Shown here piece after piece: positions 2-27,063 of a stretch of 32,714 bases of DNA. Numbering within the stretch: position 1 is the stretch's first letter; each line of letters begins with the position of its first letter. The DNA comes from a virus. Location of the stretch: the IMG/VR virus record IMGVR_UViG_3300017748_002017, positions 1 through 32,714 of that record; one strand, 5' to 3'. The position numbers were made by a program, and so were the translations under genes. The notes below the pieces were generated by a model that was not told where the DNA came from, ran no database searches, and saw nothing but the letters and a program-made list of their open reading frames with translations.

Positions 2-706
2 TATCTATTTATACTTATGGTCTGCGTACCTATTTATGCAGCTGACAATGAGATATTCATTGATCAAAGTTCAGGAGCATCTAATTCAAATATAGATTTA
101 GAGCAACTTGGTTCTGGTAACATTATTGGCGGTGCTGATGCTGCAGCAGGCTCTATGACAGATTTAAATCTAGTAGGAACAGGACTCACTTTAGACATTA
201 ATCAAATCGGAGATACAAATAAATTTCTTGGAGATATTGTGTCAGACTCATACACAGGGTTTTTTGAGTTTGATGGTAACAGTAATACTTTTAACATGAA
301 CACAGACAAGACAGCAACATACGGAGCAGATAGCTCTAATGTTAATGTTGATGTGACAGGTAATAGTAATACATTTACTTTAAATCAAGCAACTTCTGCT
401 TTAGCAAGTACACTCGATTTAGATTGGATTATAAATGGTTCTAGTAATACTATTACATCTTCAATCAATGTAGATGCTGCTACAAACTATGTTAACATAG
501 ATGGCTCAGATAACGCTTTAACACACACAGCTACTGGTTATGCAGGTAACTATTTTTATTTAGATCACGACGGATCTAATAGAACATTTAACATTACACA
601 ATCATCAACATTAGATAATGACTGGCTTAAAATTCTCAGTTCTGGTACTAGCACTTCTACTGTCTGCGTCATTCAAAACGACCAAGGCACAGGCACAAGT
701 TGTTGA
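2..706 (+). CDS. Secreted curlin-like repeat protein (5' end outside window)
   Basis: The frame is open from base 2 and the first ATG is at 17. The residues before and after that ATG form a hydrophobic run ending in an Ala-type cleavage site (about YAA|DN), so this looks like the end of a signal peptide whose true start lies upstream. The mature part is rich in Asn, Ser, Thr, Gly and Asp, with spaced units such as GNSNTF, GSSNTIT and INQIGDTNKF. These recall the Gly-Asn/Gln ladder of curlin (CsgA/CsgB) repeats, which form beta-solenoid amyloid fibres. Two Cys residues sit near the C-terminus (STVC...GTSC). The last 89 bases overlap the next gene in another frame. The related repeat in that gene suggests the two products interact outside the cytoplasm (inference). 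A phage fibre-like role is an alternative. Confidence 0.7.
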   Translation, partial: YLFILMVCVPIYAADNEIFIDQSSGASNSNIDLEQLGSGNIIGGADAAAGSMTDLNLVGTGLTLDINQIGDTNKFLGDIVSDSYTGFFEFDGNSNTFNMNTDKTATYGADSSNVNVDVTGNSNTFTLNQATSALASTLDLDWIINGSSNTITSSINVDAATNYVNIDGSDNALTHTATGYAGNYFYLDHDGSNRTFNITQSSTLDNDWLKILSSGTSTSTVCVIQNDQGTGTSC

Positions 707-1736
707 TATAGGAAGTATCAGCGAGCTAAAAGGCAATGCTCAGGTTGTGCGGGACAAACCGTATGGTGCTGAGTTAGCCTTCCCTATACAACAACTAGAC
801 AATGTTAAAACAGAAACTGGTCGAGTTGCTTTAACTTTTGTTGATGATACAGTTGTTCGTGTAATGGACCACAGCAAATTAGTTATAGATACATACATAT
901 ATGATCCTAACCCTAAAAAATCTGAAATGGCTCTTAGATTTGCTAGCGGCACTGCAAGATTTGTAACAGGTAAGTTCAATAATAAAAAGAATATATCAAT
1001 CAGTACACCAAGTGCTGATGTATTTGTTAGAGGTACAGATTTTACAATCACTACTACACCAGAAACTGGTTCTTCTTTAGTGATCTTATTACCAGATAAA
1101 TATGGTAACTCTAGTGGAGAAATAGTTGTAGCTACAGCTATGGGACAGGTTATATTAAACCAACCATACCAAGCGACTACAGCCATGACATACAATCAAG
1201 CTCCTTCTAAACCAGTAACGTTAGACATTACTTTAGAGTTTATAGACAACATGTTGATAGTGAATCCTCCTAGTGAAAAAGATAACATGCAAGAAGAAAC
1301 TCAAACAGGCACAACAGCAGACTATTTAGATTTTAATGATTTAGACGTAGATTTTTTAGCAGAGGATTTTTTAGACAATGAAGCTGATTTAGAGTTCACA
1401 GAATTAGATATAAATTATTTAGATGTAAACTTTTTAGAAGACTTACTTAACATTATAGATGCTTTGGCTGTAGGTGAGGAAGAAGATCAATTAAATCAAA
1501 TCGCTACAGGAATAAAAATAACAGGAACACAAATAGGACAAGATAAAGTAAGTCAAATTACAACGATTATTACAGGACAACTTATTAGTCTAAGAAGAAG
1601 CGTAGGTGATACATTTAGAATAGATCTAGACGGTTCAAGTTCGTATACTTTATTATTAACACAAAACGGTGTAGAAAACATAATTAAAGTTAATGGTGGT
1701 TCTTCTAATACGATAACTATAAACCAAGGCAACTAA
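618..1736 (+). CDS. Secreted FecR-domain protein with curlin-like C-terminal repeats
   Basis: The 372-residue product starts with a classical signal peptide: Lys at 5, hydrophobic core about 6-18, and an AQA-type site near 24-27. That supports the start at 618 although it lies inside the preceding gene and has no clear Shine-Dalgarno sequence. Residues about 30-190 read as a FecR domain: an N-terminal 'G.v....' strand, 'V.T...grv.L.F.D.t.v...' and 'ISTPSADVFVRGTDFTI', typical of the FecR periplasmic domain. Residues about 236-275 are a very acidic Leu/Asp/Phe repeat region. The end (about 300-372) has curlin-like units (TQIGQDKVSQ, LTQNGVEN, SSNTITINQ). In bacteria, FecR-domain proteins act in periplasmic or surface sensing and often neighbour CHASE2 cyclases, as here. 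Its stop overlaps the next start (TAATG), so translation is probably coupled. Confidence 0.82.
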   Translation: MTGLKFSVLVLALLLSASFKTTKAQAQVVDIGSISELKGNAQVVRDKPYGAELAFPIQQLDNVKTETGRVALTFVDDTVVRVMDHSKLVIDTYIYDPNPKKSEMALRFASGTARFVTGKFNNKKNISISTPSADVFVRGTDFTITTTPETGSSLVILLPDKYGNSSGEIVVATAMGQVILNQPYQATTAMTYNQAPSKPVTLDITLEFIDNMLIVNPPSEKDNMQEETQTGTTADYLDFNDLDVDFLAEDFLDNEADLEFTELDINYLDVNFLEDLLNIIDALAVGEEEDQLNQIATGIKITGTQIGQDKVSQITTIITGQLISLRRSVGDTFRIDLDGSSSYTLLLTQNGVENIIKVNGGSSNTITINQGN

Positions 1737-3481
1737 TGAAACGTTTACTACTCCCAGCTATATTAATTTTATTGAGTGTCCCTTTAATTTTACAATTCAC
1801 ACTATTAGAAATATTAAAGTTAAAAACCTTTGATTCATTAATTACTGATCAAAAACCATCAGGGTATTTTACAATTTTAAATATTACAGAAGAAGATATA
1901 ACTAATGAAGGCGGTTATCCGTTATCTAGACAAACTCTAGCTCAAATACAGATTAACCTACTAAGAAAAGGTGCGATAGGAGTGGGATGGGTTATTGCGT
2001 TCCCTCAACCAGATAGATTTGGTGGTGATTTTGAATTTACAGAAGCACTAAAGTTTGCCCCCAGTGTGTTAGCTATGTATGAAAATAATACTGACTCATA
2101 TCCTCCAACAACAGGTACAGTTATTTTAGGGGAAGATATAGGTGGTATATACTCTCAAGGTGTTGTAGAAAATATAGATGTATTAAAACATAATGCAAGT
2201 CAAGGACTAGCTGTAGCTAGAACAGATATAGATAATTTAATTCGTAGGCTACCTTTATTAATGCGTACACCAGAAGGCTGGGTGCCATCTTATGGCACAG
2301 AAGTTTTAAAAATATTAGCTGGCGCAGACACATACGTTATAAAAACAAATCAAAACGGATTAGAAGAAATACGTGTAAAAGGCATCCCTTCTGTTCCTGT
2401 AGATTCTTATGGTAGAAAATGGGTTAGTTGGGTAGACACACCTCAGACAGATTTAACTGAAATGAATGTTGAGAATAAATTTGTTTTTGTAGGGTTTACA
2501 GCTAAAGGGATTATGCCTCAACTTGCAACTCCAGTTGGTTTATTAGAGCCACACAAAATACAAGCAGCACTTGCTGAGTCTATATTGATAGAAAACAGCC
2601 CACGAATACCAGATTATTCTTTAGCTGTAGAACTGATTACATTACTGATAACTGTTTCTTTAATATGGTTTATAGTCCTTAATATGGGTATAACCTCAGG
2701 TATTTTATTAAGTACGTCCATATCGCTCCTAACACTCCTTTCTGGGCTTTATATGATACGTAAGGGTATACTTATTGACGTAACTTGGTCTTTAATATCA
2801 CAAATACTAACAGCAAGCGTAGGTTTTTATTTAAATTTTCGTACTCAGTTTAAACTTCGGCAAGAAATTAAAAAACAATTTGAACACTACCTTGATCCAG
2901 CACAAGTTAAAAGATTGCAAGATAATCCTGAACTATTAAAACTGGGTGGAGAAAAAAGATACTGTACTTTTTTATTTACAGATGTACGAGGTTTTACTGC
3001 TTTGTCAGAAACACTAGAACCAGAAGAAGTAACTAAAATTATGAATCAAGCTCTCACTATACAACAACAAGCAGTCCAAAAACATGGGGGCATGGTTGAT
3101 AAATACATTGGTGATGCAATGATGGCTATATTTAATGCTCCTCTTGATTTAGAAAATCATGAAAACAAAGCTGTAGTTGCAGCAATAGAAATACAAAAGA
3201 ATATAAAAGAAGCAGATATAGATGTAGCTATAGGTGTTGGTGTTAATACTGGTTATGCTGTTATAGGTAATATGGGCAGTGAATCACGGTTTGATTACAC
3301 AGCTATAGGAGACGCAGTAAACACTGCAGCAAGGTTAGAAAGTGCAACTAAAGAAGTTGGGGAAGATATATTAATAGGCGAGAATACTAAAAAAAGTTGT
3401 GGAATTAAGTTAAACTTACTAGAACCTATAAAAGTGAAAGGCAAAAAAGATGCCTTAAACATATACACAATACGAGGATAA
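1736..3481 (+). CDS. CHASE2-domain class III adenylyl cyclase, membrane-bound
   Basis: The 581-residue product has an N-terminal membrane anchor (about 4-24), an extracytoplasmic CHASE2 sensor (about 30-285), three predicted transmembrane helices (about 297-315, 320-341, 348-366) and a cytoplasmic class III cyclase domain (about 405-578). All key catalytic positions are visible. The metal-binding Asp pair is D416 (FTDVRGF) and D460 (IGDAMMA). The adenine-selecting pair is K456 and D520 (FDYTAIGD). The transition-state Asn/Arg pair is N529 and R533 (NTAAR). ATP rather than GTP is therefore the expected substrate and the product cAMP. The gene overlaps the FecR gene by one base (TAATG) and is followed after one base by the holin gene. 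Known CHASE2 cyclases sense unidentified extracellular signals. Its presence beside phage lysis genes is unusual. Confidence 0.93.
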   Translation: MKRLLLPAILILLSVPLILQFTLLEILKLKTFDSLITDQKPSGYFTILNITEEDITNEGGYPLSRQTLAQIQINLLRKGAIGVGWVIAFPQPDRFGGDFEFTEALKFAPSVLAMYENNTDSYPPTTGTVILGEDIGGIYSQGVVENIDVLKHNASQGLAVARTDIDNLIRRLPLLMRTPEGWVPSYGTEVLKILAGADTYVIKTNQNGLEEIRVKGIPSVPVDSYGRKWVSWVDTPQTDLTEMNVENKFVFVGFTAKGIMPQLATPVGLLEPHKIQAALAESILIENSPRIPDYSLAVELITLLITVSLIWFIVLNMGITSGILLSTSISLLTLLSGLYMIRKGILIDVTWSLISQILTASVGFYLNFRTQFKLRQEIKKQFEHYLDPAQVKRLQDNPELLKLGGEKRYCTFLFTDVRGFTALSETLEPEEVTKIMNQALTIQQQAVQKHGGMVDKYIGDAMMAIFNAPLDLENHENKAVVAAIEIQKNIKEADIDVAIGVGVNTGYAVIGNMGSESRFDYTAIGDAVNTAARLESATKEVGEDILIGENTKKSCGIKLNLLEPIKVKGKKDALNIYTIRG

Positions 3482-3482
3482 T

Positions 3483-3962
3483 ATGAAAGCATTACTTAAA
3501 AACTTAGTTGGCACAGTAGCTCCAACACTCGGTCAAGCATTAGGTGGACCAATGGGCGGTATGGCTGCAAACATGATTGCAGATGTATTAGGTTGTAAAA
3601 ATGAACCTAAAGAAATACAGAAAGCAATAGATAACGCTACACCTGAACAAATGCTTGAGCTAAAAAAAGCTGAAGCAGAGTTTGAAATTAAAATGAAAGA
3701 ATTAGAAGTAGACGTGTTTAAATTAGAAACAGCAGATATTCAAGACGCAAGAGGAAAATTTGGTAAAGACTGGACAGCTCGTATTATAGGTATTGCTGTA
3801 GTAGGTGGGTTTATGGGCTACATATTCTTAGTAACTATCCAACCTCCAGAGCAGAACAGCGAAGCTTTAATTAATCTTGTTCTTGGTTATCTCGGCGGAC
3901 TAGCCTCAGCTATTATTAGTTTTTATTTTGGTGCATCTAACACACCAAATAAAGATGACTAA
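3483..3962 (+). CDS. GTA-type 3-TM holin
   Basis: The 159-residue protein resembles the 'holin of 3TMs, for gene-transfer release' family. It has a Gly-rich hydrophobic N-terminus (about 8-36, LVGTVAPTLGQALGG...), a charged helical middle (about 40-90, repeated Glu/Lys) and two clear membrane segments (about 100-117 and 130-150). The end is the polar tail seen in this family (YFGAS...). Holins make lesions in the inner membrane that let the lysozyme reach the cell wall. A good GAGG ribosome site lies about 6 bases before the ATG. The lysozyme gene follows directly, which supports a lysis role. Confidence 0.82.
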   Translation: MKALLKNLVGTVAPTLGQALGGPMGGMAANMIADVLGCKNEPKEIQKAIDNATPEQMLELKKAEAEFEIKMKELEVDVFKLETADIQDARGKFGKDWTARIIGIAVVGGFMGYIFLVTIQPPEQNSEALINLVLGYLGGLASAIISFYFGASNTPNKDD

Positions 3963-4005
3963 CAAAAACGGTAGGTGGAATTGGTATGGAGAAAGTGAAG
4001 AAATA

Positions 4006-4449
4006 ATGAATATATCTGAAGAAGGTTTAGCTCTTTTAAAAAAATTTGAAGGGTGTGAGTTAAAAGCTTATCAAGATTCTGTAGGGGTGTGGACTATTGG
4101 ATATGGGCACACTAAAGAAGTTAAAGAAGGGGATCAAATAAATAAAGATGAAGCTGAACATTTATTAGCAGAAGAAATGCCAGAGTATGAAGGATATATT
4201 AACGATATGGTCGAAGTACCTTTAAACCAAAATCAATTTGATTCTTTAGTTTGTTGGGTGTATAACCTTGGACCAACAAATCTTAGAAACTCTACACTCT
4301 TGACAGTTTTAAATCAAGAAAGATATGACGATGTCCCTAGAGAAATAAAACGCTGGAATAAAGCTGGGGGTGAAGTTTTAAAAGGTTTAATAAGAAGAAG
4401 AGAAGCAGAAGCTCTTTTGTTTGAAGGGAAAGATTGGTATGAGGTATAG
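4006..4449 (+). CDS. GH24 lysozyme (T4-type endolysin)
   Basis: This muramidase cleaves the MurNAc-GlcNAc bond of peptidoglycan to release progeny. From the ATG at 4006 the product is 147 residues. It carries the triad E15 (KKFEG), D24 (AYQD) and T30 (VWTIGYGHT), with the same spacing as T4 lysozyme (Glu11, Asp20, Thr26). No signal peptide or SAR anchor is visible, so export depends on the holin, as for classical endolysins. The start is uncertain. The frame is also open from an ATG at 3955 (overlapping the holin stop) that would add 17 polar residues, and from 3928. I chose 4006 because the enzyme fold begins there and a GGAG lies upstream, though at a long spacing. Confidence 0.9.
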   Translation: MNISEEGLALLKKFEGCELKAYQDSVGVWTIGYGHTKEVKEGDQINKDEAEHLLAEEMPEYEGYINDMVEVPLNQNQFDSLVCWVYNLGPTNLRNSTLLTVLNQERYDDVPREIKRWNKAGGEVLKGLIRRREAEALLFEGKDWYEV

Positions 4450-14888: not shown

Positions 14889-15899
14889 ATGGGCTTTTTT
14901 AGAAAACTAGCAAAAAACGTAAAAGATAAAGCAGCACTGCAAGATCAAAGTGTAAGTATAGAAAGACTGCCTACAGAATCAAAAGGGCTTAGGTCTTTAC
15001 TAGGTGGTATGACAAAAAGAAAGAAAAACCCTAACCTAGAAGCTTTCTATAATTCACCGATGTATAAAAATTATCAAGATGAAGGCGGTATAGGAACGAT
15101 GGACATGTATACAGCTAGTGATGGCTCAATATTCGGTTCTGGTTCTGTGGGTAGAATGTATGAAAAATTTTTAGAAGATCAAGCAGCATCAAAAAGTCCG
15201 CCAGCACCCACAGGTATAGAAGCTCTCATTAGACCACAGAGAACAGATCCTAATAATCAACAAGATCTGCAAAGATTAATGGACATGCAACGACAAACTT
15301 TTAGAGGTTTTCTTGCACCACCGCCTGTTGTACAACAACCAACTGCTCCATACATCCCTATTGACGGTGGTGATTTAGGACTACCTATGAATCCAGGAAC
15401 ACCTGCTCCTGGAGGTGTAATTTTTGAAGGCGAGGTAGGCGGTACTCCGATAAACATACAAGAAATAATAGATAATTTACCTAAAGGTGTTGGGGTTGGT
15501 GGCATAGGAAACATACCTATACCAGATATTCCTTATGAAATACCTCAAATAACTGCTCCTGGTGCTCTCCCTATTGATACACCTTTTCAACTACCGCCAG
15601 AATTAGAGCAACAAATCGCTATTCCTCAATTACCTATTGAGTTACCATTTGATTTTAACACTTACGAAAAAGTCCCTGATATAAATCTACAAAATTTTAA
15701 TCCACTCGATAGCGTACCTGCTAATCTACCTTTACAACTACCGCAGATAGAAAATGTTGGGTTACCAGCAATACAACTTCCTTTTGAAATACCTACTCTG
15801 CCTCAAGTTGCTATGATGCCTAGTGTAAGTCCTGTAGCTATGCCTGCTATGAGGATGGCTAGAGTTACCCCTTCAATGAGTGGTCTAAGAGAACGCTAG
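14889..15899 (+). CDS. Proline-rich protein with basic N-terminus, probably virion-associated
   Basis: The first 50 residues of this 336-residue protein are basic (GFFRKLAKNVKDK, GMTKRKKNP). Residues about 105-330 are rich in Pro, Leu, Ile and Gln, with a recurring 'P..LP(F/L)..P' spacing (QLPPELEQQ, QLPIELPFDF, LPLQLPQIE, IQLPFEIPTLP), suggesting extended or polyproline-like structure. I do not recognise a family. It is the last gene of the plus-strand structural block, one base after the preceding stop. Its stop overlaps the 3' end of the opposing helicase gene by four bases. A virion or linker role is inferred from position. Confidence 0.55.
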   Translation: MGFFRKLAKNVKDKAALQDQSVSIERLPTESKGLRSLLGGMTKRKKNPNLEAFYNSPMYKNYQDEGGIGTMDMYTASDGSIFGSGSVGRMYEKFLEDQAASKSPPAPTGIEALIRPQRTDPNNQQDLQRLMDMQRQTFRGFLAPPPVVQQPTAPYIPIDGGDLGLPMNPGTPAPGGVIFEGEVGGTPINIQEIIDNLPKGVGVGGIGNIPIPDIPYEIPQITAPGALPIDTPFQLPPELEQQIAIPQLPIELPFDFNTYEKVPDINLQNFNPLDSVPANLPLQLPQIENVGLPAIQLPFEIPTLPQVAMMPSVSPVAMPAMRMARVTPSMSGLRER

Positions 15900-17338
15900 A
15901 CTAACCAGTCTTTCCATTTTTCTTCACCAAGCACTGTTTGAGCAATGTTTTGTTTTTGACGTAAAGCCTTAACAATTTTTTCATCAACTGTACGCTCACA
16001 AACTATATCTATATATGTAACTTTATTGGTTTGACCTATACGATGAGCACGGTCTTCAGACTGTAGTCGTTTTTCTAGATCATAGTTATTACTGTAATAG
16101 ACAACTGTATTTGCTGCGGTGAGGGTAATACCGTAACCACCTGTCTGTGTATTACCTACAAAAAATCTTAGCGGACTATCAGGGTTTTGAAACTGATTAA
16201 TAACTTCTGCTCTACGCTCTTGATTTACATCTCCGTAATAACTACCCACTGATTCTTCTCCATAGACCTTGGTCAGCTCTGCTTCTATTTTTTGTATGTC
16301 GTGTCTATAGTTTGCCCAGATAATTACTTTACCGTCTGTCTCTTCAAGTATTTCCATAAGCTCAGGTAATCTTTGACTAGGTAGTTCAGTAAGACCTCCA
16401 CCGTCAAGTCCTACAAAACCACAAGAGACTTGATGAAGCCTAATAATTTGTGTTATCAAATGTGTAATAGTTACTGTGCCTTTGCTTAAAGAAGCTTTAG
16501 CTTGCTTTTGTAAATCTTTATAAACACGTTTTTGTTCATCACTCATTTGAATAATTCTTTTGAGATACACTTTATCAGGTAAATCTAAACAGTCCTTTTT
16601 TAGTACTCGACAGCTAAATTTAAGGAGTCCCTCGTTCAGTTCTGTCAAGTTCTTGTAGCCTATCACCTGTTTGAACGTCCTACCGTTCGCTGATTTTTCT
16701 ACTAAATTAGCATATCTGGCTCTAAATGAAAAATAACTACTGAACCCTAATAAACTAGGATCTAAAAAATATGCTTGACTATATAAATCTAATGGACTTT
16801 TAGTAACAGGACTTCCTGTCAATATTCTTTTGTAATATGCATATTTACCTAAACGAACTGCGTTTATAGTTCTTTTTGCTTTATGGTTTTTTATAGTTGT
16901 ACTTTCATCAACTATAAACATAGCTTTCCTTTTGAATAAAAAGTCAGTAACAAACTGAGTGCCTTTTTTAGTACTCAAAGCTTCTATGTTCATTATCAAT
17001 ATATTTAACCTATCTGGTTCTTCTGATAACGTGGCTAATAACTTTTTATTCTTTTGTGTATTAGCGTTAGACCATTTTACTGAATGATAGTTAATCTCAT
17101 CTGGTACGTGGTTCGGTATCTCTTTACTATACCATGTATCGTATACACCTTTTGGTGCTAGTATTAACACACCGTTTATTTTTTCTTGCCTATATAGATG
17201 TACAAAATTATCTATAGCTACTTTTGATTTACCACAACCCATCTCCATAAATAAAGCAAACTCTTCTTTATCGTGTGAAGATTCTAATGCGTCAAGTTGG
17301 TGTTGATATGGTTTAGTTTTAAATAAAAACTCTGTCAT
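15896..17338 (-). CDS. SNF2-like superfamily 2 DNA helicase/ATPase
   Basis: The 480-residue product has the SF2/SNF2 motifs in order: a Q-like start (YQHQLDAL, 11-18), Walker A (MEMGCGKSK, with K37), Walker B variant IVDEST (D144, E145), motif III LTGSP (173-177), a Lys/Leu-rich middle, VIIWANYRHD (motif IV region), GYGITLTAANTVVYYSN (motif V) and QSEDRAHRIGQ (motif VI with Arg fingers). SNF2-type phage proteins move along or remodel DNA during replication, recombination or repair; this one is short and has no accessory domain. It is the only minus-strand gene here, transcribed toward the structural genes. It starts near a short promoter-bearing region shared with the divergent replication operon. 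Confidence 0.88.
   Translation of the reverse strand: MTEFLFKTKPYQHQLDALESSHDKEEFALFMEMGCGKSKVAIDNFVHLYRQEKINGVLILAPKGVYDTWYSKEIPNHVPDEINYHSVKWSNANTQKNKKLLATLSEEPDRLNILIMNIEALSTKKGTQFVTDFLFKRKAMFIVDESTTIKNHKAKRTINAVRLGKYAYYKRILTGSPVTKSPLDLYSQAYFLDPSLLGFSSYFSFRARYANLVEKSANGRTFKQVIGYKNLTELNEGLLKFSCRVLKKDCLDLPDKVYLKRIIQMSDEQKRVYKDLQKQAKASLSKGTVTITHLITQIIRLHQVSCGFVGLDGGGLTELPSQRLPELMEILEETDGKVIIWANYRHDIQKIEAELTKVYGEESVGSYYGDVNQERRAEVINQFQNPDSPLRFFVGNTQTGGYGITLTAANTVVYYSNNYDLEKRLQSEDRAHRIGQTNKVTYIDIVCERTVDEKIVKALRQKQNIAQTVLGEEKWKDWLV
15898..15924 (+). terminator. Weak terminator candidate at the convergent gene ends
   Basis: A perfect 5-base-pair inverted repeat (AGACT / AGTCT, 15898-15902 and 15907-15911, loop AACC) is followed on the plus strand by a T-rich run (TTTCCATTTTTCTT). 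It lies where the structural genes meet the minus-strand helicase. The stem is short, so this is only a candidate for ending plus-strand transcription. Confidence 0.3.
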
Positions 17339-19407: not shown

Positions 19408-20919
19408 TTGGAGATAGCAGAAAAATTAAATCAGATCTTTCACGGCTCTAGTAGAGCTCACGGCACTTTTACTGTAGAAAATAATATAATAGGACAAAAG
19501 ACTCAAGGAAAAGCAAAGACTATCAAAACCATAGGTGCTGGAGTTAAGCACTGGCAAGACCATTTAGAAGGTACACAAGGTTTAGGTATTATACCCATTG
19601 ATGAAGATAATTTAGTAAAATGGGGAGCAATAGATATCGATATATATTCTCTTAATTTAGAGAAGTTAGTTAATAAGATAGAAGAATTTAAATTACCTTT
19701 AGTAGTTTGTAGAAGCAAGAGCGGTGGTGCTCATGTATATTGTTTCTTAAAAGAAAAAGCACCTGCTGCAGATATGCAAGATAAGTTAAGAGAAATAGCT
19801 GCAGGATTAGGGTACGGTGGTGTTGAAATATTTCCTAAGCAAAGGGAAGTTTTAGTTGACCGTGGTGATATAGGAAGTTGGTTAAACATGCCTTATTTTG
19901 AAGGCGATGAGTCAATGCGATATGCGTTTGATCAAAAGGCGGAAGCTTTATCGTTAACCAATTTTATAAGTTTTATAGAAGAAAGACTTATCTCTCATGA
20001 AGAGTTAGTTGAATTAGAAGTACCAGTATTAAATGATATAAAAGATGGTCCACCTTGTTTACAGGTATTGTTAAAACAAGGCTTCCCTGAAGGTACAAGG
20101 AATAATGGATTGTTTAATGTGGGTGTTTATCTTAAAAAGTCAAACCCAGAAAACTGGGAACTTGAGATAGAGGAGTATAATCGTAAGTACGTGCACCCTC
20201 CTCTACCTGCTCAAGAAGTTTTGACTTTGATAAGCACATTAAAGAAAAAAGAGTATAACTATAAGTGTAATGATGAACCAATTAAATCATATTGTAATGT
20301 GGCTAAGTGTCGTGGGTGTAAGTACGGTGTTGGTGGCGGTAATAATACGCCAACCTTTTCTAGTCTTTCTAAGCTCGATACCAAGCCACCTTTATGGTTC
20401 TTATCTATAAATGATATGCGGTTAGAACTTAATACTGAGCAGTTACAGAATCAGTTAAAGTTTCAAAGAGCGTGTATGGAAATATTAAATATGATGCCTG
20501 CTCGTATGAACGATAGAGCTTGGCAAACTTTAATACAGACGTTGATGGATAGCGGTATGGAAGTTATAGAAGTAAGTGATGACGTGACTATAGAAGGTCA
20601 GTTTATGGAACTATTAGAATCATTCTGCACAGACATGGCTCAAGCTAATACTAGGGATGAATTATTATTAGGAAAGCCGTGGACTGAGGATGGTAAAACT
20701 TACTTTAGAATCAAAGACTTAAAAGACTATCTAGCTAAACACAGGTTTACAGATATGGAAACTAACCGTATAGCCTCTAAGTTGCGTGACCTAAAAGCTA
20801 AACATAAGTTCTGGAATATTAAAGGTAGAGGTACAAATGTTTGGTACATTGATGAGTTTAGTTATAGTGATGATGAGGATTTATTAGATCCTCAAAAGTT
20901 TGACGAGAGCGAATTATAA
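19408..20919 (+). CDS. Archaeo-eukaryotic-type primase (AEP, TOTE-like)
   Basis: The 503-residue protein would make primers for DNA replication. The AEP catalytic motifs are present: Asp pair D76/D78 (GAIDIDIY), the SGGAH nucleotide motif with H109 (SKSGGAHVYCF) and the third motif with E140 (VEIFPKQ). The last matches the form seen in the AEP domain of TOTE-type systems. A helical primase C-terminal-like region follows (about 210-275, GFPEGTRNNGLFNVGVYL). A Cys cluster comes next (about 284-303, C...SYC..AKCRGC), probably binding zinc or an Fe-S cluster. The C-terminal 150 residues look like a winged-helix-like region. The start is TTG, chosen because GGAG lies about 8 bases upstream, an in-frame TGA blocks extension, and no suitable ATG follows. 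The stop overlaps the helicase start. Confidence 0.85.
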   Translation: MEIAEKLNQIFHGSSRAHGTFTVENNIIGQKTQGKAKTIKTIGAGVKHWQDHLEGTQGLGIIPIDEDNLVKWGAIDIDIYSLNLEKLVNKIEEFKLPLVVCRSKSGGAHVYCFLKEKAPAADMQDKLREIAAGLGYGGVEIFPKQREVLVDRGDIGSWLNMPYFEGDESMRYAFDQKAEALSLTNFISFIEERLISHEELVELEVPVLNDIKDGPPCLQVLLKQGFPEGTRNNGLFNVGVYLKKSNPENWELEIEEYNRKYVHPPLPAQEVLTLISTLKKKEYNYKCNDEPIKSYCNVAKCRGCKYGVGGGNNTPTFSSLSKLDTKPPLWFLSINDMRLELNTEQLQNQLKFQRACMEILNMMPARMNDRAWQTLIQTLMDSGMEVIEVSDDVTIEGQFMELLESFCTDMAQANTRDELLLGKPWTEDGKTYFRIKDLKDYLAKHRFTDMETNRIASKLRDLKAKHKFWNIKGRGTNVWYIDEFSYSDDEDLLDPQKFDESEL

Positions 20920-23069: not shown

Positions 23070-23537
23070 ATGAATATTTTTAAGTTAGATACAACTCCTC
23101 TGCTTTGTGCTCAAACGCACTGTGACAAGCATGTATCTAAAATGATATTAGAATCAGCTCAGATGCTTTGTACTAGCCTTTGGACTAACGGTCAAAATGC
23201 TCCGTATAAGCCTGTACACGCTAAACACCCTTGTACTCTATGGGCTGGGGAAAGCCTAGATAACTGGGTTTGGTTAAAAGAATTAGCTATATATTTAAAT
23301 GAGGAGTTTTGCTGGCGCTACGGAAGATCAGCTAGTCATAAGTCTATTGACGTAATTAATGAGTTATGTCCCCCACTTATAAAAAGTAAAGGTTTACAAC
23401 AACATCCACAATGCATGCCTGATGAGTATAAAGTCAGTAATGATCCTATATCTGCATATCGTAAATATTATATGGGCGAAAAAAGCAGTTTTGCTAAGTG
23501 GACTAAACGTGAGGTACCAGAATGGTTTCAAGTGTAG
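23070..23537 (+). CDS. Conserved phage protein with Cys/His motifs, function unknown
   Basis: The 155-residue protein belongs to a family I recall as widespread in phages but without a proven function. Recognisable segments are MNIFKLDTTP at the start, CDKHVSKMILESAQML (about 18-33), KHPCTLWAGES (about 51-61), a central helix with an RYGR segment and an end with AYRKYY...FAKWTKREVPEWF. Conserved Cys, His, Lys and Trp suggest an enzyme or nucleic-acid-binding protein. The small size and the YY/K/W end invite comparison with pyrimidine-dimer glycosylases, but that is too weak to assert. It overlaps the hypermodification-like gene by 16 bases. Confidence 0.65.
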   Translation: MNIFKLDTTPLLCAQTHCDKHVSKMILESAQMLCTSLWTNGQNAPYKPVHAKHPCTLWAGESLDNWVWLKELAIYLNEEFCWRYGRSASHKSIDVINELCPPLIKSKGLQQHPQCMPDEYKVSNDPISAYRKYYMGEKSSFAKWTKREVPEWFQV

Positions 23538-24364
23538 AAGGTTTTTATGACTATATTAATGAAAGGCATGCTATTTATTTAAAACGTTTCATAGGAGAAC
23601 CTTTTCCGTGGACTGATGATGAAATACTACAGACCTACAGTTTCTGTAATGTGTATCGTGAGTTAGATAAAGTTACTGTGTGGATACGTGAAAACTGGAA
23701 AGAACCTTATGCTGATCATCCTAACTTACCCTTTGCTATGGCTGTAGCTCGTCAAATAAATTGGCCAGATACTTTACAGGAAATAGGTTTTCCTGAGCAC
23801 TGGAATCCTGAGCGTGTTAAAGCTATTATGCAAGGTAGAATGGATAGAAAAGAAAAGGTGTACACAGGTGCGTATATGTTAACAGGTACATTAGGTGGTA
23901 CAAAGGTTGAGCAAACTATAGATAAGATACTGACACCGCTCTATGAATCACCTCCTGAGATACTACCACACTCTTTAGAAGAAACTTGGAAAAAGTATCT
24001 ACCATATCCTGGATTTAGTGGGTTTATGGCTTATGAAGTAGTTACGGATTTACGACACAGTAAATATTTAGAAGAGGCTGACGATATCATGACTTGGGCT
24101 AACGCTGGTCCAGGAGCAAAACGTGGGTTAAATAGAATACACGGTAGACCACTTGAGCAAACTATAAAACCACTTCAGTTAACTATAGAGATGCAGGAAT
24201 TATTAGATATGGCAGGCGATTACATAGGAAACTTTTTACCCGACCTAGAGATGAGAGAAATAGAACACTGCCTATGTGAGTACGATAAATATGAAAGGGT
24301 ACGTCTAGGTGAAGGCAGACCTAGAGCAAAATTTAAATATACAGGAGAAACAAAATGGCTATAG
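23522..24364 (+). CDS. 5-hmdU DNA kinase helical-domain / aGPT-pyrophosphorylase-like protein
   Basis: The 280-residue protein carries the signature I associate with the helical domain of 5-hydroxymethyl-dU DNA kinases and the related alpha-glutamyl/putrescinyl-thymine pyrophosphorylases. An N-terminal helix (YINERHAIYL) leads to FCNVYRELDKVTVWI (41-55). A C-terminal region follows with MAYEVVTDLRH (about 169-179), ADDIMTWAN and GPGAKRGL (196-203), the last reminiscent of a helix-hairpin-helix. In thymidine-hypermodifying phages such proteins act on hydroxymethyluracil in DNA. No P-loop kinase domain is present, so this is the stand-alone helical form. The neighbours (Nmad1-like, dUTPase, glycosyltransferase, ThyA-family) fit a base-modification pathway. 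The family name is from memory and the reaction is inferred. Confidence 0.72.
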   Translation: MVSSVEGFYDYINERHAIYLKRFIGEPFPWTDDEILQTYSFCNVYRELDKVTVWIRENWKEPYADHPNLPFAMAVARQINWPDTLQEIGFPEHWNPERVKAIMQGRMDRKEKVYTGAYMLTGTLGGTKVEQTIDKILTPLYESPPEILPHSLEETWKKYLPYPGFSGFMAYEVVTDLRHSKYLEEADDIMTWANAGPGAKRGLNRIHGRPLEQTIKPLQLTIEMQELLDMAGDYIGNFLPDLEMREIEHCLCEYDKYERVRLGEGRPRAKFKYTGETKWL

Positions 24365-24684
24365 AACCAAAAGATTTATTTAACCTAGTAGAAGACGACG
24401 TGCGTGAATTAGTACACGCAGAAAAAAGCTACGGAGATAGTTGGCGTAAGCGTGGTGGGGTGGGAGCTTTTATGATGTTAGCACGTAAATGGGATAGGAT
24501 AGAAAACCAGTGCATCAAAGACGGTTACGATATATTCGACACAATATCAAAGGATCCAACCAATACAGGTATCTTAGATGACATACGTGATTTACGAAGA
24601 TACTTAATATTAGTTGAGGACTTTATGACAAAGATTCATATTAAAGAAACAAGAGAGGATAACTATGAAGAAAGTAGAGATTAA
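24355..24684 (+). CDS. Nucleotide modification-associated domain 1 (Nmad1/DUF1599)-like protein
   Basis: The 109-residue protein contains YGDSWRKRGGVGAFMMLARKWDR (about residues 26-48) and ends with ILDDIRDLRRYLILVEDF. This matches my recollection of the small helical family first called DUF1599 and renamed Nmad1 because it accompanies nucleotide-modification genes in phages. Its reaction is not known to me. It overlaps the preceding gene by 10 bases and the dUTPase gene by 20 bases. That tight coupling between a hypermodification-like protein and a nucleotide-pool enzyme suggests a role at the nucleotide level. Confidence 0.7.
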   Translation: MAIEPKDLFNLVEDDVRELVHAEKSYGDSWRKRGGVGAFMMLARKWDRIENQCIKDGYDIFDTISKDPTNTGILDDIRDLRRYLILVEDFMTKIHIKETREDNYEESRD

Positions 24685-25123
24685 AATAATAGACCCAAGT
24701 TTATTTGACCACACTGACCCACACATACTACCAGAGTATGCTACTGTAGGTTCAGCTGGTTTAGACTTACGGTCAGCGGAAGATTATGAGTTGGCTCCAG
24801 GAGAGTCGCATACATACCGTACAGGGTTGGCTATGTACTTAGGTGACTTTGAACTTTGTGGTATGCTTGTGCCTCGTTCTAGTTTAGGTATTAAAAAGAT
24901 ACACTTAACTAATACGCTAGGAATTATTGACGCAGATTATCAAGGTGAGTTAATGGTTCCGTTAACTAATAACGGAGAGGATAATATCCTTATAGAAAAA
25001 AGTCAAAGGATAGCACAGTTAGTTATAGTGCCTGTGGTTCAGGTGCTGTGGCAACCAGTTTTAGATTTTAGTGGTATCACAATGCGTAGTATTGGTGGTT
25101 TCGGTAGCACAGGTACAAAGTAG
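24665..25123 (+). CDS. dut: dUTP diphosphatase (dUTPase)
   Basis: The enzyme hydrolyses dUTP to dUMP and pyrophosphate, keeping uracil out of DNA and supplying dUMP to the ThyA-family enzyme encoded downstream. All five trimeric-dUTPase motifs are visible in 152 residues: AGLDL (31-35), PRSSLG (70-75), GIIDADYQGEL with catalytic D89 (86-96), EKSQRIAQL (112-120) and the C-terminal P-loop-like RSIGGFGSTG (141-150). Length is normal for the family. The start lies inside the end of the Nmad1-like gene with GAGAGGAT just upstream. In a phage that hypermodifies thymine, a dUMP supply would also feed hydroxymethyl-dUMP synthesis (inference). Confidence 0.94.
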   Translation: MKKVEIKIIDPSLFDHTDPHILPEYATVGSAGLDLRSAEDYELAPGESHTYRTGLAMYLGDFELCGMLVPRSSLGIKKIHLTNTLGIIDADYQGELMVPLTNNGEDNILIEKSQRIAQLVIVPVVQVLWQPVLDFSGITMRSIGGFGSTGTK

Positions 25124-25125
25124 TT

Positions 25126-25281
25126 ATGAGAAGAGGAACAAGTAATTTAGAACATAATTTTAAATCAGGTGTTAGAGGTAAAAAAACTTCTATCGGTTTT
25201 GGTAACGTAGGCACTAGCACTATGAATAAAAGTAAGAAACGTATGCGAGGTAAATCTGCATACAGGGGGCAAGGTAAATGA
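25126..25281 (+). CDS. Small basic protein of 51 residues
   Basis: An open frame from ATG 25126 to TGA 25281 fills the gap between dUTPase and the glycosyltransferase. The product is strongly basic with many Lys, Arg and Gly. It has FKSGVRGKKTSIGFG in the middle and KKRMRGKSAYRGQGK at the end, with almost no acidic residues. Its stop overlaps the next ATG in the ATGA form used throughout this operon, which supports translation. There is no recognisable domain. A nucleic-acid-binding role is suggested by charge only. Confidence 0.65.
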   Translation: MRRGTSNLEHNFKSGVRGKKTSIGFGNVGTSTMNKSKKRMRGKSAYRGQGK

Positions 25282-26063
25282 AAATATATATACCAACAAG
25301 AGGTAGACCGTTTAATCAAGAAACTCTCAAATGGTTTCCTAAAGAAATGCAAACTAATGGTCAGGTTGTGTTAGTTATCGACTCAGACGAAGAAGAAAAA
25401 TACTATAACTATAAAGACACACCTAAGATGGTTGTGCCTGAAGATTGTATAGGTATTGGTCCAAAGCGTAAATACATTGTAGAAAATACAGACGACCCAC
25501 GCATGGTTATGTTAGATGATGACTTACGTTTCTATATCCGTAAAAGCCCAATTGATTGGCATTTACGATATTTAGAATCAAATGAGTACCCAGCTTTGTT
25601 CGGTTTGCTTGATGAATGGATGGATCAAGGCTACGCTCATGTAGGTGTAAGTGCTAGAGAGGGTAATAATAGAGTAGAAGATTTATCTGTAGAAAATACA
25701 AGATACATGCGAGTGCTCGGCTATAACCTAGAAGAGTTTCCTAGCGACGTTGAGTGGGGCAGGACTCAAGTTATGGAGGACTTTGATATATCTTTACAGC
25801 TTCTTAGGAGAGGTAAAGCTTGTAAGGTTAGTTACTACTACGCTCAAGGACAAAAGTCTTCTAACGCTGACGGTGGTTGTAGTGAGTGGAGAACTATTGA
25901 TGTACATAATGAAGGTGCTCAAAGGTTACACGACCTTCACCCTACTTGTGTAAAGGTTGTGGAGAAACAAACTAAAACTGCATGGAACGGTTTACCACGT
26001 AAAGATGTAATCATAGGTTGGAAAAAAGCTTACAAAGAAGGAGTAGAAAATGCAGGTAATTGA
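25278..26063 (+). CDS. GT-A fold glycosyltransferase, possibly DNA-base-modifying (TAGT-like)
   Basis: The 261-residue protein starts MKIYIPTRGRP, followed by a strand (VVLVIDSDEE), GPKRKYIVEN and a DxD-like metal/sugar-nucleotide motif VMLDDDLRF (D80-D82). A downstream acidic motif, QVMEDFDISLQLLRRGK (E167, D168, D170), is typical of GT-A enzymes. This pattern resembles the TET-associated glycosyltransferase family described in phage base-modification operons (from memory). Encoded between modification-type genes and the ThyA-family gene, it is a candidate for transferring a sugar to a hydroxymethylated base in phage DNA. Another acceptor, such as host surface glycan, cannot be excluded, but there are no membrane segments and no LPS-type neighbours. 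It overlaps the ThyA-family gene by 14 bases. Confidence 0.75.
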   Translation: MKIYIPTRGRPFNQETLKWFPKEMQTNGQVVLVIDSDEEEKYYNYKDTPKMVVPEDCIGIGPKRKYIVENTDDPRMVMLDDDLRFYIRKSPIDWHLRYLESNEYPALFGLLDEWMDQGYAHVGVSAREGNNRVEDLSVENTRYMRVLGYNLEEFPSDVEWGRTQVMEDFDISLQLLRRGKACKVSYYYAQGQKSSNADGGCSEWRTIDVHNEGAQRLHDLHPTCVKVVEKQTKTAWNGLPRKDVIIGWKKAYKEGVENAGN

Positions 26064-27063
26064 GGTAAGAAACGTTCATGACGCTTTAGTGCGTGGCATG
26101 GATTTACTACACACAGAAGATTTTAAAAATGAAAGTAGAAATGGTAGAGTGTATCAGGCAAGAACCCCAGTGACTACAGTTTATGAAAGATCTAAAGAAA
26201 GAGTTTTATTCTGGGCAGAGCGTGACGCTAACCCATTCTTTCATTTTATGGAAGGTCTATGGATGCTTGACGGTCGTAATGATTTAGAGTTTGTAAAACA
26301 CTTTGCTAAAAGTATGGAGAACTATAGCGATGACGGTAAAAGCCTTTGGGGAGCATATGGTTGGAGATGGCGTAGTTACTTCGGTTACGATCAATTAAGA
26401 GTCATTATAGAAAGGTTAAAGAAAGATGGTGAAGATAGAAGGTCTGTGCTACAGATGTGGGATGCTGAAAATGATTTAGGTAGAGACGGTAAAGATGTAC
26501 CGTGTAACACCTCTATATACTTTAAAGAAGATACTACAGGGTGTCTACAGATGACGGTTAGTAATAGATCTAACGATATTATCTGGGGTGCTTACGGTGC
26601 TAACGCAGTACACATGTCTATGCTTCATGAATATATGGCTTCTAACATAGGCATACCAGTTGGCAGATATTATCAGATTAGTGATAACTTCCATGCCTAT
26701 GAAGAGTTATTTGATAAATTATTAGATAAATTAATTGGCAGAGATGCTCTAGATTTTTATACACAAAGAACAGCTATGAAAAATAATCCATATCTTAGAG
26801 GAGAAGTTGCACCATACTCTATGATAAACGTTAGCCCAGATTTATGGGACATAGACTTAGTTAATTTTTTAGATAGAGTACCTTTTGAAGACATAGAATT
26901 TAATGATAGATTCTTTACAGAGGTTGCTGTACCAATGCAAGATGCTTTTTGGTTACATAAGTTAGGTAAGACAGAAGAAGCTATAATAGAAATACAAGAA
27001 TGTGCTGCTACAGATTGGCGTAAAGCATGTTTTGAATGGTTAGACAGAAGACTAAATAAATAA
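26050..27063 (+). CDS. ThyA-superfamily enzyme: thymidylate synthase or dUMP hydroxymethylase
   Basis: The 337-residue protein is of the folate-dependent ThyA fold. Visible features are the general-acid Glu region FHFMEGLWML (E68), LWGAYGWRWR (about 99-108), the nucleophile Cys152 in DVPCNTS, RSNDIIWGAYGAN (173-185) with N185 at the position that reads uracil, and FHAY (H215, Y217) for the deoxyribose. In standard synthases the Cys is followed by His (PPCH) and the Asn motif is LPFN; here both differ. It could therefore be a thymidylate synthase, or a hydroxymethylase making 5-hydroxymethyl-dUMP, the usual first step of thymine hypermodification. AAGGAG 7 bases upstream supports the start. 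The dUTPase in the same operon supplies its likely substrate. Confidence 0.85.
   Translation: MQVIEVRNVHDALVRGMDLLHTEDFKNESRNGRVYQARTPVTTVYERSKERVLFWAERDANPFFHFMEGLWMLDGRNDLEFVKHFAKSMENYSDDGKSLWGAYGWRWRSYFGYDQLRVIIERLKKDGEDRRSVLQMWDAENDLGRDGKDVPCNTSIYFKEDTTGCLQMTVSNRSNDIIWGAYGANAVHMSMLHEYMASNIGIPVGRYYQISDNFHAYEELFDKLLDKLIGRDALDFYTQRTAMKNNPYLRGEVAPYSMINVSPDLWDIDLVNFLDRVPFEDIEFNDRFFTEVAVPMQDAFWLHKLGKTEEAIIEIQECAATDWRKACFEWLDRRLNK

Follow-up and report, generated by a model that had tools for sequence, protein, structure and literature searches.

Type VIII secretion (T8SS, curli) modules are known from marine phages infecting SAR11 and OM43 (PMC9599517, PMC9004378). A module that includes FecR and an adenylate cyclase was described in 2022 in HTVC023P-type podoviruses and in myoviruses; csgE was reported to be absent from these pelagiphage modules, and one or two "histidine kinases" ("HK, sometimes two") were placed before csgF (PMC9599517). 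The copy of the curli operon in Melnitz has also been described (PMC9004378). In bacteria, FecR-CHASE2 pairs with a histidine-kinase output are found in a Burkholderia biofilm operon (PMC5192318). In S. meliloti, the outer-membrane barrel NsrA mediates the response of CHASE2 cyclases to a protein signal (PMC13001267), and CyaD1 from the same organism produces cAMP constitutively when its CHASE2 domain is missing (PMC5498481).

The window analyzed here is the whole of a linear IMG/VR virus record of 32,714 bases. Its DNA polymerase A is 49-51% identical to those of HTVC023P-type phages, and a virion protein, a UvrD helicase, a thymidylate synthase and a dUTPase are encoded elsewhere in it; megablast of the window against named phages returned no match. 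The first three reading frames overlap one another and lie directly 5' of two lysis-type genes (Table 1). A first-pass annotation of this DNA had described three coupled genes, encoding a curlin-like protein, a FecR protein and a CHASE2 cyclase, with holin and lysozyme genes directly downstream, and the reading frames, their overlaps and the Pfam matches bear this out, the curlin being a putative call from homology, position and a structural model. The same annotation had read the genes as an envelope-sensing and cAMP module and named no characterized phage system of this kind. They are not a stand-alone FecR/cyclase module but almost certainly the 3' end of a T8SS module of the pelagiphage type, which is annotated in HTVC008M and Melnitz and has been published (PMC9599517), so the system itself is not new. 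The order of the module is one or two small membrane coiled-coil proteins, csgF, csgG, curlin, FecR, an optional second curlin and the CHASE2 adenylate cyclase, and its carrier here is an HTVC023P-like marine phage in which it stands beside lysis genes. What is new is that the small proteins before csgF have no kinase domain, that lysis genes follow the cyclase in 48 of 65 loci, and that FecR ends in a conserved curlin-like strand.

Two other parts of the window deserve mention. Positions 23522-27063 carry matches to a 5-hmdU DNA kinase helical domain, a TET-associated glycosyltransferase (TAGT), dUTPase and thymidylate synthase, a gene set that suggests thymine-base hypermodification of the phage DNA. 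A protein with a TOTE-type archaeo-eukaryotic primase domain and a SNF2-type helicase are encoded at 19408-20919 and 15896-17338, the helicase on the strand opposite to nearly all other genes.

Table 1. Features of the curli module and its 3' neighbors; positions are those of the window unless a locus is named.
Feature	Position	Strand	Remarks
Curlin-like secreted protein (CsgA/B-type)	2..706	+	5'-open; 5' end and most of the signal peptide lost at contig end
FecR-domain protein, 372 aa	618..1736	+	N-terminal hydrophobic signal segment, FecR domain, acidic disordered linker, C-terminal beta domain
FecR domain, residues 62-148	801..1061	+	PF04773, E=6.8e-11
FecR C-terminal beta domain, residues 300-372	1515..1733	+	I368 and Q370 invariant in 50 homologues
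CHASE2 class III nucleotidyl cyclase, 581 aa	1736..3481	+	Predicted adenylate cyclase, class IIIb-like
CHASE2 periplasmic sensor domain, residues 11-306	1766..2653	+	PF05226, E=1.6e-25
Cyclase catalytic domain	2960..3472	+	Guanylate_cyc PF00211, E=1.7e-20; D416, D460 (metals), K456/T522 (base), N529/R533
Holin-like protein (phrog_1544)	3483..3962	+	Two C-terminal TM segments; neighbor, not a curli component
Phage lysozyme (endolysin)	3928..4449	+	Phage_lysozyme PF00959, E=4.3e-49; neighbor
Small pre-csgF proteins	L011:6699-7049; L053:6461-7017; L072:3166-3716; L002:3126-3407; L003:3210-3848		

The window opens inside the curlin gene, and the start of this gene, csgF and csgG are missing from it, lying beyond the contig end. 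In the near-identical contigs L005, L006 and L011, csgF and csgG are found upstream of curlin; in L011, whose cyclase is 94% identical, CsgF (E=8.3e-19) and CsgG (E=1.8e-49) are encoded downstream of a tail-fibre gene, and a full-length homologue of the curlin-like protein (L011:8243-8971) is 96% identical to the copy in the window. The curlin-like reading frame has no Pfam match of its own, including none to Curlin_rpt, and its putative assignment draws on position, on homology to the curlin genes of HTVC008M and Melnitz and on the model of the L011 copy, which is predicted with high confidence to adopt an all-beta repeat fold (pLDDT 86.5, pTM 0.84); a fold search with this model gave no significant PDB match. 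The gene order recurs in marine viral contigs. Among the 80 IMG/VR loci kept, csgG is present in all 34 with at least 3.2 kb of upstream sequence and FecR lies upstream of the cyclase in 71 of the 74 with visible upstream sequence, both tallies including the window itself, and the possibility raised earlier that the genes would be absent from related phages is contradicted by these counts. Relatives of the window cyclase number at least 587, confirmed among the first 600 IMG/VR stretches matched by pattern, and the module is widespread in marine viruses. OR851715.1, a very short record (1,499 bp) under the name Salmonella phage S.Kent 1-2-1, contains a csgG-like gene and is perhaps a piece of bacterial csgG deposited as phage.

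Directly before csgF, 35 of 42 loci encode one or two proteins of about 80-116 amino acids, each with one transmembrane segment and a coiled coil; six of the seven exceptions are contigs that start at or within csgF. These small proteins (phrog_18771 family) precede csgF in podovirus- and myovirus-type modules alike. They show no HisKA or HATPase match and no kinase domain, and since they correspond in number and place to the "HK, sometimes two" of PMC9599517, calling them histidine kinases, as published, is probably wrong. The discrepancy is likely a problem of naming in the description and not the absence of a gene.

The FecR protein of the window has no cytoplasmic anti-sigma domain, its N-terminus consisting of a hydrophobic signal-like segment only, and therefore a role as a classical FecI/FecR-type iron regulator was rejected. 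Its model matches FecR-type anti-sigma (CSS) domains (4m0h, E=1.3e-4; PupR 6ovk, E=9.6e-4), with an overall pLDDT of just 62 that falls below 50 in the final 13 residues. The last residues of the protein, which include the two invariant positions, resemble a curlin repeat strand. Both phrog_37870 (FecR) and phrog_35576 (cyclase) match the respective window proteins over almost their full length, and thus phage homologues of both are already in the PHROGs library.

The layout of the cyclase fits that of a CHASE2 receptor, in which the extracytoplasmic CHASE2 domain is set between membrane segments and the output domain faces the cytoplasm; hydrophobic segments (residues 9-27, 296-314 and 323-341) lie around and after the CHASE2 domain. 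Across 83 cyclases, D416, D460, K456 and R533 are kept in all and N529 in 82, and the partner in base recognition, T522, is Thr in 70, Ser in 12 and Asp in one. Threonine as the base-specifying partner is a trait of class IIIb adenylate cyclases. Most of the nearest solved structures belong to class III adenylate cyclases, and we predict from the sequence that the window cyclase is active and converts ATP to cAMP. In the Melnitz cyclase (L003:7917-9968), the transition-state Asn is replaced by Ser and the base-specifying residue is Asp, and the activity of this enzyme may therefore differ or be weak. No cNMP-binding protein was found in 13 related viral records or among those window proteins that were scanned, and so a cAMP receptor would have to be the host's. 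In a single SAR11 MAG we observed two cNMP-binding matches, both in large ABC-exporter-like proteins that are perhaps contaminants.

These observations suggest a possible mode of action for the module. Late in infection, the curlin-like protein would be exported through an outer-membrane pore built by CsgG and CsgF, and periplasmic FecR would contact the pore or the fibre subunits through its FecR domain and its curlin-like C-terminal strand. By analogy with bacterial CHASE2 systems, FecR may then report the state of the pore, the fibre or the envelope to the CHASE2 domain of the inner-membrane cyclase, which, once switched, would make cAMP that acts on a host receptor. The phage could benefit through aggregation or a block to superinfection, through uptake by way of the pore, or through the timing of lysis. 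The relay from FecR to CHASE2, its trigger, the cAMP receptor and the benefit, taken together, are tentative and may well prove otherwise, and for the explanation as a whole, curli module and relay included, we lean cautiously in favor. Several observations count against it: a viral cNMP-binding protein was not found, Melnitz has Ser at the transition-state Asn, the curlin-like protein has no Pfam match and no significant structural match, and clumping of infected cells was not seen in the Melnitz study (PMC9004378).

It seems conceivable, if unlikely, that infection leads to curli fibres which clump host cells or prevent superinfection, with FecR and the cyclase serving only to regulate fibre production. 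The complete csgF-csgG-curlin set with a secreted curlin agrees with such a role, and sibling capture and superinfection defence have been hypothesized for the module (PMC9599517). However, the lack of clumping with Melnitz and the reported absence of csgE speak against it, as does the fact that no CsgD-like regulator was identified in the window.

Still less probable, in our judgment, is that the module is a lysis-timing device, in which the envelope is watched over by the curli pore together with FecR and the cyclase, and holin, endolysin or spanins are triggered with the help of cAMP or of the opening of the pore. Lysis genes lie on the same strand within 1.6 kb 3' of the cyclase in 48 of the 65 loci with enough sequence, loci that are not phylogenetically independent, and comprise a holin-like gene with lysozyme (22 loci), Rz/Rz1 with lysozyme (18) or Rz/Rz1 alone (8), spanins (Rz/Rz1) being assigned via PHROGs. 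The main text of PMC9599517 mentions neither "holin" nor "lysozyme". The small proteins before csgF bear weak similarity to holin families, and CsgGF has been proposed as a pinholin-like pore (PMC9004378), both of which would suit a function in lysis. However, 17 of the 65 loci, including those of HTVC008M and Melnitz, have no lysis gene 3' of the cyclase, and in phage DSL-LC04, which has no annotated curli genes at this place, a holin and an endolysin already precede the same virion gene; the adjacency may therefore only mark an insertion slot. In the window, the holin-like call is a putative one, based on its two transmembrane segments, weak homology and the same position as the "Holin of 3TMs" of DSL-LC04, and the true start of the lysozyme is likely to be an ATG near 4006. 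In L007, whose cyclase is 93% identical, Rz/Rz1 spanins (L007:2181-2901) stand where the window has its holin-like gene, an exchange of genes right at the boundary between cyclase and lysis genes. A bolder form of the argument, that FecR and the CHASE2 cyclase would act as a trans-envelope sensor of the assembly of the curli pore or fibre and time lysis via cAMP, as a phage-encoded second-messenger lysis clock within the lysis cassette, is a long shot.

That the left end of the window is a host-derived segment, a misassembly or decaying cargo, the first two of which the first-pass annotation had considered, is very improbable even though FecR/CHASE2-cyclase pairs occur in bacteria. Its junctions are repeated in L004 and L005 (100% and 97% cyclase identity) from other metagenomes, and its gene order is seen again in numerous viral contigs that are independent of it; the cyclases of the phages group in a single clade, and the genes are under strong purifying selection. 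In a maximum-likelihood tree that clade has 100/100 support and stands apart from the bacterial CHASE2 cyclases sampled. The two bacterial entries within it (L107 and L103) come from a Flavobacteriaceae MAG that carries the phage contig L089, to which L107 is identical. Relative to the window, FecR has a Nei-Gojobori dN/dS of 0.04-0.13 and the cyclase one of 0.05-0.12, values that resemble or lie below those of the lysozyme and the virion protein; dS is saturated in the more distant pairs. The intact catalytic residues and this selection also argue, at the level of sequence, against an inactive cyclase.

A scan of genome contigs gave six matches, four of which (L084-L086 and L089) carry curlin, FecR and cyclase. 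These four are assigned to MAGs of Pelagibacter, Neomarinimicrobiota, Maricaulis and Flavobacteriaceae and are probably viral contigs wrongly binned. The remaining two are CHASE2 cyclases, 31-32% identical, without curli genes. Recent acquisition from a sequenced chromosome was rejected on this basis.

We conclude that the three genes are real, conserved and selectively maintained, and that the cyclase is probably an active signaling part of the curli module. The adjacency of lysis genes and the correction of the histidine kinase label sharpen existing hypotheses and do not reveal a new kind of system. The hosts of these phages are very abundant, streamlined marine bacteria, and the retention of an enzyme of cAMP synthesis equipped with a periplasmic sensor raises the question of what a phage gains from cAMP.

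In bacteria, pairs of FecR and CHASE2 cyclase, which the first-pass annotation had mentioned, are present in four alphaproteobacterial plasmids, with FecR directly before the cyclase in three and across a divergent intergenic gap in the fourth, and two of these loci adjoin an NHLP exporter. In Paracoccus pAMI5 and Shinella p1 the FecR-domain gene directly precedes the cyclase as it does in the window, in Shinella beside an exporter; however, the FecR proteins are larger, no curli genes are present in the stretches seen, and cyclase identity is about 30%. The CyaD1/CyaD2/CyaK-NsrA-Clr pathway of S. meliloti can be likened to the phage module in that its CHASE2 cyclases are activated through an outer-membrane barrel protein (PMC13001267), but it serves symbiosis and has a known cAMP regulator, Clr. 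Among named phages, Pelagibacter phage HTVC008M and four Melnitz phages alone gave tblastn matches to both proteins, cyclase and FecR, that covered most of the query; these phages carry, as annotated, csgF-csgG-curlin-FecR-curlin-cyclase. The Melnitz operon (PMC9004378) thus has the same kind of order, but it belongs to a T4-like myophage, its cyclase has Ser for the catalytic Asn, and no lysis genes follow the cyclase. The pelagiphage T8SS (PMC9599517; HTVC008M, NC_020484) shares a putative curlin gene, FecR and adenylate cyclase with the window in the same order and also includes csgF and csgG. In comparison with HTVC008M, the window cyclase is 33% and its FecR 37% identical, the window is cut inside curlin, and its cyclase is preceded by no second curlin gene and followed by the holin-like and lysozyme genes.
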